Assembly (NCBI GenBank): GCA_029881035.1
Contig: JAOUNI010000014.1
Span: forward strand, 1-50,751
DNA length: 50,751 nt
Source: Gammaproteobacteria bacterium
Lineage (GTDB): Bacteria; Pseudomonadota; Gammaproteobacteria; SZUA-229
Reading direction: 5' to 3'
Shown here: piece by piece, positions 34,321 to 49,997 of the stretch
How positions within the stretch are numbered: position 1 is the stretch's first letter
How the letters are laid out: each line of letters opens with the position of its first letter
Position numbers and translations under genes: made by a program
Notes under the pieces: generated by a model
Told to the model about the DNA's origin: nothing
Databases searched by the model: none
The model's input: only the letters and a program-made list of their open reading frames with translations

Positions 34321-34349
34321 TTGACTTCATTAGCATTTCTATATATTCT
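34321..34349 (+). promoter_or_regulatory. Predicted sigma-70 promoter of the sulfur-globule-like cluster
   Basis: TTGACT at 34321-34326 and TATTCT at 34344-34349 are separated by 17 bases. This is the best promoter-like sequence in the 190 bases before the first globule-like gene. Confidence 0.55.
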
Positions 34350-34357
34350 AATAACCA

Positions 34358-34375
34358 TAAGTTCTTATGAACTTA
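34358..34375 (+). promoter_or_regulatory. Palindrome at the predicted transcript start
   Basis: TAAGTTC and GAACTTA form a perfect 7-bp inverted repeat around TTAT. It begins nine bases after the -10 element, so it would lie at the very 5' end of the mRNA. It may act as an operator or as a stabilising 5' hairpin. Confidence 0.45.
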
Positions 34376-34411
34376 GAGCGCATGTTTACTAACTAAATGA
34401 GACTAAATATT

Positions 34412-34795
34412 ATGAAAACTTTAAAAGTAATTGCTATTGCTGCAATCTTCGCTGCTTCTACTTCGGCTAATGCCTGGTGGGGTCCTTTCAATAACAATGG
34501 TTACAACAACGGTGGTTATAACAACGGTTATAACGGTTATAACAATGGTTATGGTAACGGTGCTGGTGATTTTGATGGCGGCGGTGACATGGACTTTTCT
34601 TTTGGTATGAAAGCTAAAGGAAATGGCAGCGGTTATGGAAATGGTAATGGTTACAACGGTTACAACGGTTATAACAACTACAATGGTTATAACGGTTATA
34701 ACGGTTACAACGGTTATGCTCCATACGGTTATGCTCCTTATGGTTATGCTCCAGCTCCTGCTCCAGCCCAGGCTCCAGCTCCAGCAAGCAAATAA
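34412..34795 (+). CDS. Sulfur-globule-protein-like secreted Gly/Asn/Tyr-rich protein 1
   Basis: A 127-residue protein starting MKTLKVIAIAAIFAAST with a Sec signal peptide cleaved after ANA (residue 21), so the mature protein begins WWG. It then has GNGAGDFDGGGDMDFSFG, a glycine/asparagine region with repeated NGY triplets, a PYGYAP repeat and an Ala/Pro tail. The signal peptide, the WWG start and the Gly/Asn/Tyr repeats match the design of sulfur-globule envelope proteins (SgpA/B of Allochromatium vinosum), which coat periplasmic sulfur deposits. ATG 34412 gives the normal signal peptide; ATG 34397 would add five residues. A paralogue lies 1.2 kb downstream. Function is inferred. Confidence 0.78.
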   Translation: MKTLKVIAIAAIFAASTSANAWWGPFNNNGYNNGGYNNGYNGYNNGYGNGAGDFDGGGDMDFSFGMKAKGNGSGYGNGNGYNGYNGYNNYNGYNGYNGYNGYAPYGYAPYGYAPAPAPAQAPAPASK

Positions 34796-34823
34796 GGTCT
34801 ACTGCTACGGTAGTTAACTTTAG

Positions 34824-34860
34824 AAAAGGTCAGACACGATTATAGTGCCTGGCCTTTTTA
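34824..34860 (+). terminator. Rho-independent terminator after globule-like gene 1
   Basis: AAAAGGTCAGACAC pairs with GTGCCTGGCCTTTTT (two G-U pairs), and the T-rich 3' arm acts as the T tract. It would let most transcripts end after gene 1, so that gene 1 is expressed more strongly than the two genes after it. Confidence 0.75.
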
Positions 34861-34890
34861 GTTTTAAATATTTAATTAAGGAACACTGTT

Positions 34891-35604
34891 ATGAGTGAAT
34901 CAAAATCAGATAATAAAGAAATAATTGAAGAAACCCCGGTTGTCAGTGAAAAAAAATTGGACAAAGCGGAAAAAGTGACAAAAGCAAAAAAAGTAACAAA
35001 AGCTAAAGAAGTAGAAGAAGTTTCTGTTGAAGAAGCGATTGTTGAAAAGGAAGAAGTAACTGCAGCGCCTTACCTTGCTACTAAAAAAGAAGAAGTTTCA
35101 AAATCTTCTGTTAAAGCTGGAACATATATGGCGATAGCGGCAGGTGTTTTGTTAGTTGTTGCTTTAACAGCCGTTACATTTTTTCAGGACGAGTATGAAT
35201 CTGCGGTTGCAAGTTTGATGTCGATTGTTGTAGCTGATGAAGCAGCACAAGAAGCAGATCTGGCTGCAATTGAAACAGAAGTAAGTAACGGTGAAGCTCA
35301 GGCTTTTGATCAGGTTGTGACGGCAAATAATGATTATCAATCATTTGCGATGAATCAGAACAAAGCCAGTACTTTTGAAGAAAAGCGTCAGAATCGACGT
35401 GCTGCATTTGAAGAATCAAGACGTAAGCACGATGAAAGAATGGCAGAAATGTACCAGCTAAGAACAGCAGCGTTTGATCGTATGAATAAAAATCAGGCGG
35501 ATATACGTAACAGAATGGAAATATTGCGTACTAAAACTCAAGAGATTCAATTAGAGATGCAGCAGAAAATGCAAACTGCATATAACGAGTTTCACTCGAT
35601 CTAA
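34891..35604 (+). CDS. Single-pass membrane protein with an extracytoplasmic coiled coil, between the globule-like genes
   Basis: A 237-residue protein. Residues 1-74 are Lys/Glu-rich with repeats of VTKAKK type and no signal peptide. One membrane segment covers 75-97. Residues 160-230 form a long coiled coil. With the Lys-rich end in the cytoplasm, the coiled coil would be periplasmic. The stretch RRAAFEESRRKHDERMAEM (169-187) resembles the C-terminal tail of globule-like protein 2. Known globule proteins include a coiled-coil member in A. vinosum (SgpD), so a role in globule assembly or tethering is plausible. The start is ATG 34891, nine bases after AAGGA. Confidence 0.7.
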   Translation: MSESKSDNKEIIEETPVVSEKKLDKAEKVTKAKKVTKAKEVEEVSVEEAIVEKEEVTAAPYLATKKEEVSKSSVKAGTYMAIAAGVLLVVALTAVTFFQDEYESAVASLMSIVVADEAAQEADLAAIETEVSNGEAQAFDQVVTANNDYQSFAMNQNKASTFEEKRQNRRAAFEESRRKHDERMAEMYQLRTAAFDRMNKNQADIRNRMEILRTKTQEIQLEMQQKMQTAYNEFHSI

Positions 35605-35655
35605 TTTGAACCGAAGTAGTTGAGTTTTTTACATTACATTATCGAGGATAGACAA

Positions 35656-36249
35656 ATGAAAAAATTAAAAATAGTAGCAGTAATATCGGCCCTGGTTATT
35701 TCATCATCAGCGAATGCATGGTGGGGTGATAACGGTTATGGTAACGGCAGTGGTTACAATAACGGTAATGGTTATGGTAACGGAAATGGTTACGGCAACG
35801 GTGCTGGTGATTTTGATGGCAGCTTTGGTTTTAATATGAGTGCTAAAGGAAATGGTCGCGGTAACGGCTATGGTAATGGTTATAATGGTTATAACGGTAG
35901 TAACAATTATAATGGCTACAATGGTTATAACGGTTACAACGGTTATGCTCCTTATGGTTATGCGCCAGCGCCAAATGCTCCAGCAGCTCAGGCACCAGCA
36001 GCTCAGGTACCAGCTCCAGCAGCTCAAAACGGACAGGCTCCTTACGGTCCATATGGTTATGCTCCAGTTCAAAATGGTCAGGCTAATTACGGACAGGCGC
36101 CATTAACTCAGGAGCAGATGGAAGCTGAACGGGCTGCATTTATTAAGCAGATGGAAGAAAGACGTGATGCTGCACGTAAGCAACACGAAGAAATGATGAA
36201 AAAAATGCACGAAGCTCGTGCAAATAAAGATGGTGCCAATAAAGGCTAA
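35656..36249 (+). CDS. Sulfur-globule-protein-like secreted Gly/Asn/Tyr-rich protein 2 with a charged tail
   Basis: A 197-residue paralogue of protein 1. Its signal peptide (MKKLKIVAVISALVISSSANA, cleavage after 21) leads into WWGDNGYGNG. A GAGDFDGSFGFNMSAKGNG segment matches protein 1, followed by NGY repeats (about 70-96) and PYGYAP. It has two additions: an Ala/Pro/Gln-rich linker (about 105-150) and a charged helical tail (about 151-190), which carries ERAAF ... ARKQHEEMMKKM. The tail resembles the coiled coil of the membrane protein encoded just upstream. GAGG lies eight bases before ATG 35656. Confidence 0.78.
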   Translation: MKKLKIVAVISALVISSSANAWWGDNGYGNGSGYNNGNGYGNGNGYGNGAGDFDGSFGFNMSAKGNGRGNGYGNGYNGYNGSNNYNGYNGYNGYNGYAPYGYAPAPNAPAAQAPAAQVPAPAAQNGQAPYGPYGYAPVQNGQANYGQAPLTQEQMEAERAAFIKQMEERRDAARKQHEEMMKKMHEARANKDGANKG

Positions 36250-36263
36250 TCTTTTTTAAATAT

Positions 36264-36300
36264 AAACGGATTTTAGTGATATGTCTGGAATCCGTTTTTA
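36264..36300 (+). terminator. Rho-independent terminator after globule-like gene 2
   Basis: AAACGGATT pairs with AATCCGTTT, followed by TTTA. It lies 15 bases after the stop codon and closes the globule-like cluster. Confidence 0.75.
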
Positions 36301-36393
36301 GGTAGTAGTAAGCGTTGTTGACGCAAACCTGCTTTTCTGAAGAGTTTCATCCATGACAGATTAACCAGGTTTAGCAGTAGTCATGCGCTGCTA

Positions 36394-36427
36394 GGGTGCG
36401 GTAGTTTAGGCTATCGCACCCATTTTT
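36394..36427 (+). terminator. Second terminator hairpin downstream of the globule-like cluster
   Basis: GGGTGCGGTAG pairs with CTATCGCACCC around TTTAGG, followed by TTTTT. It lies just before the end of the convergent Mut7-C gene and insulates the two transcription units. Confidence 0.7.
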
Positions 36428-36441
36428 GAGGGTGATTGTTT

Positions 36442-46519: not shown

Positions 46520-47434
46520 ATGTTCAAGTGTATTTGTCTTTTATTCGTCCTAATTGTATCTCCTCTAGCTGAAGCATCAGAGAACGATAAAAAGGTAATT
46601 GCATTTGCGCAGGATACGATGGCTAATGATTTTCGTAAAGCGCAGGTATTTGAAGTACGTGATGAAGCAGCAAAATATCCGGAGATTTCATTTGTCTATT
46701 CTGATGGGCAGGGTCAGACTTCATTAATGATTAGACAGATCGAACAATTCATTGCACAGAAAGTGGATTTGCTAATTATCGGAACAAACGATGAAAATGC
46801 GGTTGTTCCAGTTGTTTCAAAGGCTTACAAATCGGGCATCCCAGTCATTGTTCTGGATAGAGGTATTAAGGGCAATGACTACACGACTTTTATCAATTCG
46901 GACAATATAAAAATTGGCAGGCTTGGTGCTGAGTTTGTTGCGCAAGAATTAAATGGAAAAGGGGTTGTTTTATTATTTGAAGGCATTCAGGAGGCTGACG
47001 TCACTCAGCTAAGAAGTCAGGGTTTTATTGATGAAATCAGTAAGTATAAAGAAATTCAGGTAATAAAACGTACCGGTAATTATTTAAGAAAAGATGCCGT
47101 TATCGAAATGGAGAAATTGCTAAAACAGGGTGTTCACATTGATGCTATTTTTTCAGAAAGCGATAGCATGCTGAGTGGCGTAAGAATGGTGTTGAAACGT
47201 TATAAAATTGATCCTTCTTCGATAGTGATGGTGGGTGTTGATTATATCAGTGAGGCGCAGCAAGCCATACGTAATGGTAATCAATCGGCTTCTATACTTT
47301 TCCCCCTTGGCGGTACGGCGACAATCAATAATGCATTGAAAATTTTTAATGGTGAAATGGTGCCAAGGCATATTTATAACCCGGTTGAACTGGTAACTAA
47401 AAAAAATGTGGAAGAAATTACCCCCATTTTTTAG
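46520..47434 (+). CDS. Periplasmic binding protein, RbsB-like (Peripla_BP_4 type)
   Basis: A 304-residue exported protein. The signal peptide probably ends at AEAS-EN (about residue 19-20). The type I periplasmic-binding fold shows VIAFAQDTMANDFRKAQ, QKVDLLIIGTNDENAVVPVVSKAYKSGIPVIVLDRGI and GVDYISEAQQAIRNGNQSASILF. Such proteins bind ribose, galactose, autoinducer-2 or related ligands. No ABC permease or ATPase gene is nearby. Instead a c-di-GMP enzyme with a large periplasmic domain follows after 46 bases, so it probably serves as a sensor subunit rather than a transporter part. Confidence 0.85.
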   Translation: MFKCICLLFVLIVSPLAEASENDKKVIAFAQDTMANDFRKAQVFEVRDEAAKYPEISFVYSDGQGQTSLMIRQIEQFIAQKVDLLIIGTNDENAVVPVVSKAYKSGIPVIVLDRGIKGNDYTTFINSDNIKIGRLGAEFVAQELNGKGVVLLFEGIQEADVTQLRSQGFIDEISKYKEIQVIKRTGNYLRKDAVIEMEKLLKQGVHIDAIFSESDSMLSGVRMVLKRYKIDPSSIVMVGVDYISEAQQAIRNGNQSASILFPLGGTATINNALKIFNGEMVPRHIYNPVELVTKKNVEEITPIF

Positions 47435-47480
47435 TTAACATATTGTTAATGAAAATGTTTGGAAAATATAAAATGCTCAA

Positions 47481-49997
47481 ATGTGGATGCTGAGTTTGCA
47501 AAAAAAAAGAAGCCTTAAAACTAAATTTTCAATATTGGTAACAACGGCTGTCATGCTTGTTGTAATTGTATTGGGTTTTTATTTTGATAATTTTATAAAA
47601 AATAGTTTTCTTGAAAACACCCGTATCCGTATGCATCATGGTTACGAAAGACTGTTATATAATCTAAAAAATATTGAACGTGAACTCAATGAAGGAATAG
47701 AATTTGCACGTTCAGATGAGAAATTAATTGCATCGATTGAGCTGATTAATAATTATCAGGATAAGGATAATTATAATGTTTATCTCATAGATGAAGAGAA
47801 AAAATCGATAGCCAGTCAGTTATTAAGTCGAGTCAAACTTTCATTCAACGAAGACATTGCAGTTTATGATGTAGATAATGAGCTGATTGCTTTTGTGACT
47901 AAGGTGAATAAGGCATATCAACTGTGTTACGTCTCCTACCAGGATAGTCATCATCAAGTGATGAGTCGAAATGAATATCATCACGAATACATTGCTGAGA
48001 AAGTTTCACTGCCCTTAAGTATTTCTCATCAACATCAATATTTTTATAATACAAGTCCATTTGATAAAAAAAGCCTGATAACGTATCAGCAGATGTCTGA
48101 CCAGATTATTATTAAATCTCATCAGAGTATTTTTGATACGAGTTCAAATCAATCAATCGGCCATATTGAGATGTCACGAAATCTGGATCGAGCTTATTTT
48201 GAACGATTTTCTGAAGAGCTTGATCTTGATGTCCAGTATTCATTTGACCCAATTTTTGATGAACAGGCAGGGATTCTGAAAGACGATCTCGATGTATCGC
48301 AGCTTAATGTTTTTCAGTCTGACCTTAATTACACTGTAGTTCTGAAACAGGATAGTCAAGATGGATCAATTTACTATCGCGTTAACCTGGATAAAGCTGC
48401 TTTGAATGCGTTGTTAAATGAAAGTCGAGCACAGTTTTTTATATTCCTGATTCTAGTTTTGATCTCTATTATATTGCTGATGCAGTATGTTATTAATCAT
48501 TGGCTAAATTACCCATTAACCCAGCTGATGCAGCAAATTCATAAAATTGAAAGTCAGGATTACTCTATATCCACTCCTGTTGCCAGTGGTGATGAAATTG
48601 AAACCATCTCAGTCAATATTAATCAACTGGCGCGGACTATTCAGGAACGTGAGTTATCACTCAGGGTCTCTAAAGATGAGCTTGAATATCTTTCTAATCA
48701 TGATGTGTTAACTGACCTGCCGAATCGTCGAATTTTTTCACAATGTTTGCAGCATGCTCTTAATCTGGCTTCACGTAATCGGGGTCGACTGGCTATCTTC
48801 TTTCTTGATCTGGATCAGTTTAAACTGGTCAACGATACCTTGGGGCATGATGTCGGTGACGAACTCCTGGTCCAGGTATCAAAACGTCTGATTAAACATG
48901 TCCGTAGTTCAGATACTCTGGCTCGCATCGGTGGTGATGAATTTAATATCCTGATTGAGAACGCACCGGATAACCACGATCTGGAAAAACTGGTGGAAAA
49001 ATACATGTCGTTGTTTGGTGAGCCATTTCATTGTTGTGGGCATGAAATCAGTGTTACGGTCAGTATCGGTATTTCGCTCTATCCGGAAAATGGTGAGGAC
49101 AGCGTTACCCTGATCAAACACGCCGATCTGGCAATGTATAAATCAAAAGACCATGGTCGCAATAATTACACCTTTTTTTCTAGTGAGCTGTCGGTGCAGG
49201 CTCAAAATCGTGTTGATCTGATTCGTGCTCTTGAAAGTGCTATTGAGTCTGGTAATCAGTTTGAGCTGTATTACCAACCAAAAGTATTGTCCAACACGCA
49301 TCAAATTTTTTCTATCGAGGCCTTGCTGCGCTGGCATAGTCCTGACCTGGGTGAAGTTTTACCCGATGAATTCATTTCATTGGCAGAAGAAACTGGGCTG
49401 ATCATTCCTATTGGCCAGTGGGTGTTGCAGCAGGCTTGTCAGGATTTTATGCGCTTGCAGGAAGAAAATATTTATTTACAACATGTCAGCATTAATATTT
49501 CAAATGTGCAGATGAGCAGGTGTGACATGCTGGCACTGGTTAAAGGTGTGGTTGATAGAACTGGAATAAGGCACGAACAAATAGAATTAGAGATTACCGA
49601 AAGTTATATTGCAACTGACATAGATCAGGCCATCGAAACATTGCAGATATTCCATGACATGGGTATAGGTGTGGCGATTGATGATTTTGGTACGGGTTAT
49701 TCCTCGATGCATTATTTACAGAAATTGCCGATTACTCGTCTTAAGATAGATAAAAGTTTTGTTGATGACCTGCCTCTGTCGAAAGATAGCTCAACTATTG
49801 TACGCGCTATTATTGGTCTGGCAAAAAGTTTTGACCTTGCCATTACTGCTGAAGGTGTTGAAAATAAAGATCAGCTTCTTTTTCTGGAGCAAGCGCAGTG
49901 CGATGAAATACAGGGGTATTATATTTCTAAACCACTCTGTCTGGATGACTTCAGGGTTTTTTATAACTCAAAGATGGATGAGAGCGTGCATTCATAA
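47481..49997 (+). CDS. Membrane sensor with HAMP, GGDEF and EAL domains
   Basis: An 838-residue protein. A membrane segment at about 17-37 and another at 316-338 enclose a periplasmic domain of about 280 residues. A HAMP-like region follows to about 392. The GGDEF domain has an intact GGDEF at 484-488 and an RxxD inhibitory site (RSSD) five residues before it. The EAL domain has EALLRW at 613, NISNVQM, ELEITES, IDDFGTGYSS, LKIDKSFV and AEGVE, so both halves look catalytically competent. It should control cyclic di-GMP in response to a periplasmic signal, probably delivered by the binding protein encoded 46 bases upstream. Confidence 0.9.
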   Translation: MWMLSLQKKRSLKTKFSILVTTAVMLVVIVLGFYFDNFIKNSFLENTRIRMHHGYERLLYNLKNIERELNEGIEFARSDEKLIASIELINNYQDKDNYNVYLIDEEKKSIASQLLSRVKLSFNEDIAVYDVDNELIAFVTKVNKAYQLCYVSYQDSHHQVMSRNEYHHEYIAEKVSLPLSISHQHQYFYNTSPFDKKSLITYQQMSDQIIIKSHQSIFDTSSNQSIGHIEMSRNLDRAYFERFSEELDLDVQYSFDPIFDEQAGILKDDLDVSQLNVFQSDLNYTVVLKQDSQDGSIYYRVNLDKAALNALLNESRAQFFIFLILVLISIILLMQYVINHWLNYPLTQLMQQIHKIESQDYSISTPVASGDEIETISVNINQLARTIQERELSLRVSKDELEYLSNHDVLTDLPNRRIFSQCLQHALNLASRNRGRLAIFFLDLDQFKLVNDTLGHDVGDELLVQVSKRLIKHVRSSDTLARIGGDEFNILIENAPDNHDLEKLVEKYMSLFGEPFHCCGHEISVTVSIGISLYPENGEDSVTLIKHADLAMYKSKDHGRNNYTFFSSELSVQAQNRVDLIRALESAIESGNQFELYYQPKVLSNTHQIFSIEALLRWHSPDLGEVLPDEFISLAEETGLIIPIGQWVLQQACQDFMRLQEENIYLQHVSINISNVQMSRCDMLALVKGVVDRTGIRHEQIELEITESYIATDIDQAIETLQIFHDMGIGVAIDDFGTGYSSMHYLQKLPITRLKIDKSFVDDLPLSKDSSTIVRAIIGLAKSFDLAITAEGVENKDQLLFLEQAQCDEIQGYYISKPLCLDDFRVFYNSKMDESVHS

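Follow-up and report, generated by a model that had tools for sequence, protein, structure and literature searches.

We describe a three-gene locus that is probably a sulfur-globule coat module equipped with a membrane anchor and a feedback small RNA (sRNA). The window, that is the whole stretch of DNA analysed (50,751 nucleotides), carries the three genes on its plus strand from 34412 to 36249, and the RNA and promoter elements discussed below lie on the same strand. Computational support comes from the membership of two of the proteins in the sulphur globule protein (SGP) family, the linkage of the membrane protein gene to them, a conserved leader, an sRNA-like element, the complementarity between leader and element, and the co-occurrence of these parts. 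The bacterial family to which the genome belongs consists of uncultivated sulfur-oxidising bacteria, whose named members are all metagenome-assembled genomes, one of them labelled Thiotrichaceae.

The outer genes of the locus, sgp1 (P0001, 34412-34795, 127 aa) and sgp2 (P0003, 35656-36249, 197 aa), encode secreted sulphur globule proteins, the second with a C-terminal coil tail. In a Pfam profile search both products exceeded the curated cut-off of the SGP family (PF17228, 26.7 bits), scoring 27.5 bits (5.8e-6) and 38.6 bits (2e-9), respectively. On inspection, each sequence has a lysine-rich start and a hydrophobic core, with ANA before WWG, in the manner of a Sec signal peptide, and both contain the GAGDFDG block and the NGY repeats after the mature WWG start. 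The best start codons are the ATGs at 34412 and 35656, and the upstream ATG/TTG starts of the open reading frame list were set aside. The initial annotation had recognised these shared features, all of which are present at about the coordinates it gave, and had read them as the design of sulfur-globule envelope proteins, which the profile matches bear out. Its feature list was sound in what it described, but it had overlooked the leader, the hairpin between the first two genes, the sRNA-like element and two SGP paralogues. The latter are encoded on other contigs of the same genome (G000:C48:23583-23972 and G000:C37:87980-88375; L003, L004); both lie away from the module and have no leader motif. 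SGP-like proteins rich in NGY or GY are also found without the module on contigs labelled Anderseniella and Magnetovibrio (L105, L107, L108).

The genome also encodes the expected metabolism. Profile searches identified dsrA (626 bits) and soxB (about 725 bits), and the dsr genes are arranged as dsrA-B-E-F-H-C-M-K followed by a dsrL-like flavoprotein gene (dsrABEFHCMKL). The presence of dsrEFH adjoining dsrAB is a mark of the oxidative direction and, judged from its gene content (this cluster together with soxB), the host would oxidise sulfur by a globule-using pathway. One could argue that the NGY-rich secreted proteins are structural components for another use, such as a sheath or a matrix, as the SGP matches are partly due to low-complexity composition and several family genomes with dsr or sox genes have no SGP. 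We find this very unlikely, because the curated cut-off is passed, the SGP search was positive in none of 14 control genomes, and the sulfur oxidation genes are there. Elsewhere in the window (46520-49997), a periplasmic binding protein gene is followed by one for a HAMP-GGDEF-EAL protein, possibly a ligand-sensing c-di-GMP pair, and a plasmid search gave no match.

The order sgp, membrane coil gene and sgp with coil tail recurs across the family (20 neighbourhoods read), so that the arrangement proposed in the initial annotation, a coat protein, a membrane coil and a tailed coat protein, is a conserved module there. In the window's genus the module is flanked by genes for an MltC-like transglycosylase and a monomeric isocitrate dehydrogenase, in other genera it lies between exonuclease-I-like and aminotransferase-like genes, and in three neighbourhoods (L048, L049 and L061) it occupies yet other genomic places. 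Since the linkage is kept despite different flanks, it points to a functional association rather than to old synteny. The annotation had named three outcomes that would speak against it, namely no SGP profile similarity, a genome without sox or dsr genes, and a middle gene not conserved beside sgp; instead, the PF17228 cut-off was passed twice, the dsr cluster and soxB are present, and homologues of the middle gene stand beside sgp genes in relatives.

Co-occurrence tests that treat related genomes as independent give p values of 1.5e-5 for coil and SGP, 6e-10 for coil and sRNA, and 2e-8 for leader and sRNA. Co-occurrence was also counted in the 22 high-quality genomes of the family, 17 of them with SGP; these genomes are related and the counts are descriptive. 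A membrane coil gene is present in 16 of the 17 SGP-bearing genomes, while all five genomes without SGP also have no coil gene, leader or sRNA. As for leader and sRNA, 15 of the 22 genomes have the two together and the other 7 have neither. One high-quality genome (G024, L059) has sgp and both kinds of coil gene with neither leader nor sRNA, an apparent joint loss of the two, and another (G008) has SGP without coil, leader or sRNA.

The middle gene (34891-35604) encodes P0002, a single-pass membrane protein of 237 aa whose long C-terminal coil is predicted to be periplasmic; we call its family CC-B. The protein has no N-terminal signal peptide; about 77 charged residues precede an internal membrane segment, the single hydrophobic stretch of the protein (about residues 78-98), and the lysines N-terminal of this segment and the acidic residues after it predict an N-in/C-out topology. 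A structure predicted from five sequences contains helices at 74-141 and 156-236 and is confident in the C-terminal one only (pLDDT about 90-98). The initial annotation had proposed a single-pass protein with an extracytoplasmic coiled coil, and the single segment, the predicted C-out orientation and the long helix all agree with it; the periodicity of this helix, however, has its maximum at 3.6 and not at 3.5, so a true coiled coil is not established.

Neither P0002 nor its family has a significant match in Pfam, NCBIfam or PDB. A single-sequence search of GTDB contigs with P0002 found nothing, whereas profile searches worked, which we attribute to the quick divergence of the family. Among relatives, homologues turned up within the window's own genus and two further genera of the family. 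A profile built from 18 rows detected the gene in 27 of the 54 family genomes, with no convincing match among 365 other gammaproteobacteria. Coil-profile matches outside the family were weak and partial, and we took them as chance coil matches. Judging by these searches, the P0002 family is new, confined to this bacterial family and almost always adjoining sgp genes. A second family of single-pass membrane coil proteins, CC-A (alignment A3), was found in 17 family genomes, each of which also has SGP, and its genes lie within sgp clusters wherever the neighbourhood was inspected. Two of them are preceded by the sgp leader (L028 in G018, near 1234; L029 in G031, near 2108); in G018, the AUG of the leader core is in frame with the gene. 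We do not claim a shared origin for CC-A and CC-B, whose mutual match spans only about 30 C-terminal columns.

What might the membrane protein do? The coil tail of sgp2 (residues 152-195, 36109-36240) is predicted as one helix, the only confident part of the sgp2 structure, and it scores 23 bits with the profile of the P0002 coil, above all 200 residue shuffles (maximum 11.8 bits). With the membrane-coil profile, 9 of 12 tails outscore every shuffle, and in one genus a secreted protein that consists of the tail and has no NGY part takes the place of the tailed coat protein (L050:10995-11558, L052:4031-4564, L053:3932-4396 and L054:11043-11537). This likeness supports a predicted contact between the sgp2 tail and the coil of the membrane protein, and with such a contact a tether role would be plausible. 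Alternatively, rather than tethering the globule, the membrane coil protein could serve the coat proteins as an assembly, export or sensing factor, or act as a scaffold that keeps the globule at a distance from the membrane or the cell wall. The basis for a role is linkage and topology only, and some homologues have long low-complexity linkers, which fit a spacer as well as a tether; the resemblance of the membrane coil to the coat-protein tail, on the other hand, suggests direct contact with the coat. We regard this alternative as a genuine possibility, at rather less than an even chance.

The second layer of the module is the 5' region of the sgp genes. Upstream of sgp1, a consensus scan and the upstream alignment place a putative promoter (TTGACT-N17-TATTCT, 34321-34349) within a promoter-leader block of the family, whose promoter is of the type TTGAC / TAATAT. 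It is followed by a hairpin, ATAAGTTCTTATGAACTTA (34357-34375), whose sequence varies among genomes while the palindrome and its position are kept, and by the predicted sRNA target (34377-34397), which comprises the core AGCGCATG (34377-34384) and a second block, TTACTAACTAAA, and adjoins the ribosome-binding region. The same succession of promoter, variable hairpin and AGCGCATGA heads sgp1 and most module sgp genes of relatives, and in many genomes TTGCTGTTAA stands between AGCGCATGA and the ribosome-binding region. The hairpin is supported against shuffles (p < 0.05) in 26 of 53 leader segments. Our sequence model of the leader (R2), which matches the window at 34330-34384, detects it in 31 of the 54 genomes of the family, and wherever the surroundings of a match were read it stood at an sgp gene, at a CC-A gene, or at a contig end where the cluster would start. 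In one search with the leader model, sgp1 was the only leader-bearing gene of the window's own genome.

Downstream of sgp2 lies an sRNA-like element (36365-36431), supported by alignments A4 and A5, by covariation and by a match of 75.6 bits to our covariance model R1. It contains an antisense seed, TTTAGCAGTAG-TCATGCGCT (36370-36389), and a terminator hairpin (36394-36421) followed by a U-tract. Across genomes, an invariant TCATGCGCTG is found directly 5' of the terminator hairpin and the U-run, in most cases preceded by TTAGC[AG]GNA, and for 10 of the 17 predicted pairs both sides are altered in at least one sequence, all of these compensatory changes being in the terminator hairpin. The conserved structure may start near 36330. 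In the window's genus a hairpin precedes the element, and in one genus the element has a sharply bounded conserved 5' domain that contains a hairpin. A further hairpin with a T-run lies just 3' of sgp2 (36265-36299); its T-run is not kept in G004, which leaves a terminator or a processing site as its reading.

In family genomes the element sits just 3' of the last gene of the module, on the same strand. With the covariance model, 27 family genomes gave matches of 57-88 bits, a single copy each except for G010, which has two. A degenerate copy of 31 bits is located directly after the coil gene at G003:C14:43750-43837, where the tailed sgp gene is missing. The element was not found in the 365 other gammaproteobacteria sampled, which gave only weak terminator-like matches of 19-33 bits, and the best match outside the family (G392, L195) was rejected as a terminator hairpin without the seed. 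Rfam gave no match at gathering level, the best over the element being CsrC with 12.2 bits against a gathering threshold of 61; low-threshold microRNA and snoRNA matches were dismissed as far below gathering, the microRNA ones falling within the NGY repeats.

The link between the two elements is that TCATGCGCTG, the invariant segment, is exactly antisense to the core of the leader. The make-up of a trans-acting antisense sRNA, a conserved seed that is complementary to the leaders of several mRNAs and a terminator, is present here, and we predict that the element is one. Moreover, the leaders were picked by core and promoter alone, so that the second pairing block played no part in their selection, and this block pairs better than dinucleotide shuffles (p < 0.05) in 20 of 47 leaders, with a combined p of 3e-16 over related leaders that are not independent. 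The duplex of the window's leader and seed has an energy of -24.1 kcal/mol, which 18 of 5000 shuffles of the leader equal, and by pairing energy alone stronger seed partners than the leader exist within the window; the case for pairing thus rests on conservation and not on energy. Within the window's genus, the leaders of G000 (the window's genome) and G001 each pair better with the sRNA of their own genome: the G000 leader reaches -20.6 with it, against -16.8 with the G001 sRNA, and the G001 leader -20.4, against -17.7 with the G000 sRNA. The cognate-versus-swapped test over all genomes was not significant (p 0.14), which we ascribe to a seed that barely varies.

Could the motif act as DNA rather than RNA? 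Leader and downstream element might share a protein-bound site made of AGCGCATGA and the hairpin, with no sRNA and with the downstream hairpin serving as the terminator of the module. The same motif does occur with an adjacent hairpin at both places, and leader motif and 3' element are nearly always present together. However, the downstream layout is that of an sRNA gene, with an antisense segment, a compensatorily changing terminator and a U-run; its conserved 5' domain with the hairpin is sharply bounded in one genus; and the motif there is unaccompanied by a promoter. In addition, where leaders differ from the perfect target, T-for-C changes that keep G-U pairing number 28 and A-for-G changes that lose pairing number 9. 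An A+T-rich sequence would favour both equally, so the excess leans to RNA pairing, and in 51 of 53 leaders the position preceding the core is occupied by A or G, both of which can pair with U. We therefore consider a shared DNA site unlikely.

It is also conceivable that the 3' element is confined to acting in cis, so that within one module mRNA the 3' end pairs with the 5' leader. In the window's genus a single transcript could carry both, and no conserved promoter for the sRNA was seen. Against a purely cis arrangement, many of the relatives contain several sgp genes under separate promoters and leaders, and some leaders are found on contigs other than that of the sRNA (G039:C23, G028:C14), which favours action in trans; we judge pairing in cis alone to be quite unlikely.

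Taken as a coat module with an anchor and an RNA regulator, the locus could work as follows. Transcription would start at the promoter upstream of sgp1, and most transcripts would stop at a terminator-like hairpin with a T-run between sgp1 and the coil gene (34824-34859, -18.2 kcal/mol), yielding much coat protein, while some would read through to give less of the anchor and the tailed coat protein. This hairpin is probably an attenuator, and a comparable one is present at 16 of the 20 sgp-to-coil junctions of the family. The products of sgp1 and sgp2 would be periplasmic coat proteins of the sulfur globule, and the membrane coil protein would most likely hold or organise the coated globule at the cytoplasmic membrane through contact with the sgp2 coil tail. 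The sRNA would either have a promoter of its own or be processed out of the 3' end, and its antisense of AGCGCATGA would pair in trans with sgp mRNAs next to their ribosome-binding region, possibly with the help of Hfq, which the host encodes (98 bits). Such pairing would most likely lower sgp translation and thereby place coat synthesis under feedback. Whether the whole family has such a module, in which a 3'-encoded sRNA controls coat translation through the leader and membrane coil proteins attach the globule to the membrane, we rate at slightly below even.

Several known systems share parts of this design. SgpA, SgpB and SgpC of Allochromatium vinosum (PF17228) are, like the window proteins, Sec-exported, short and repetitive coat proteins. 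The A. vinosum sgp genes are at scattered loci, according to their locus tags (PMC10386293), whereas those of the window form a cluster with a membrane coil gene, and one of their coat proteins carries a coil tail. SgpD of the same organism is an exported globule protein with confident helices, a possible coiled coil and tryptophan as its first mature residue; it is reported almost exclusively from Chromatiaceae, is transcribed as a unit of its own, and is a soluble protein after cleavage (PMC10386293). The likeness to SgpD lies in predicted export to the globule, helices, a possible coiled coil and the mature tryptophan start, and P0002 differs from it in being membrane-anchored without a cleavable N-terminal signal peptide. 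The layout of sgp2, an NGY body with a coil tail, loosely resembles that of SgpD, compared by description.

For the regulator, the nearest known logic is that of OppZ and CarZ of Vibrio cholerae, which are autoregulatory sRNAs derived from 3' UTRs (PMC7398697). There, as predicted here, the 3' end of an operon gives rise to an RNA that pairs with the transcript of that operon. RNAs of this type are freed by RNase E from the end of the mRNA and not transcribed from a promoter of their own. In contrast to the Vibrio RNAs, the seed in the window matches the leaders of many sgp genes, some of them unlinked. In the open literature searched, titles and abstracts that combine sulfur globules with a coiled coil, a membrane anchor or a small RNA gave no hint of such a module. 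To our knowledge, the coat proteins described so far offer no connection to the membrane.

If true, our reading would be the first proposal of an RNA regulator, and likewise of a membrane anchor, for sulfur globules within the open literature searched. It touches on two questions, how globules are positioned and how the coat is matched to the sulfur load, and two new membrane coil families together with an sRNA that has a clear target motif make both of them testable. Moreover, the leader and sRNA models can serve as a marker for such modules in metagenomes. Thus, the module suggests how these cells may attach their globules and limit the amount of coat.
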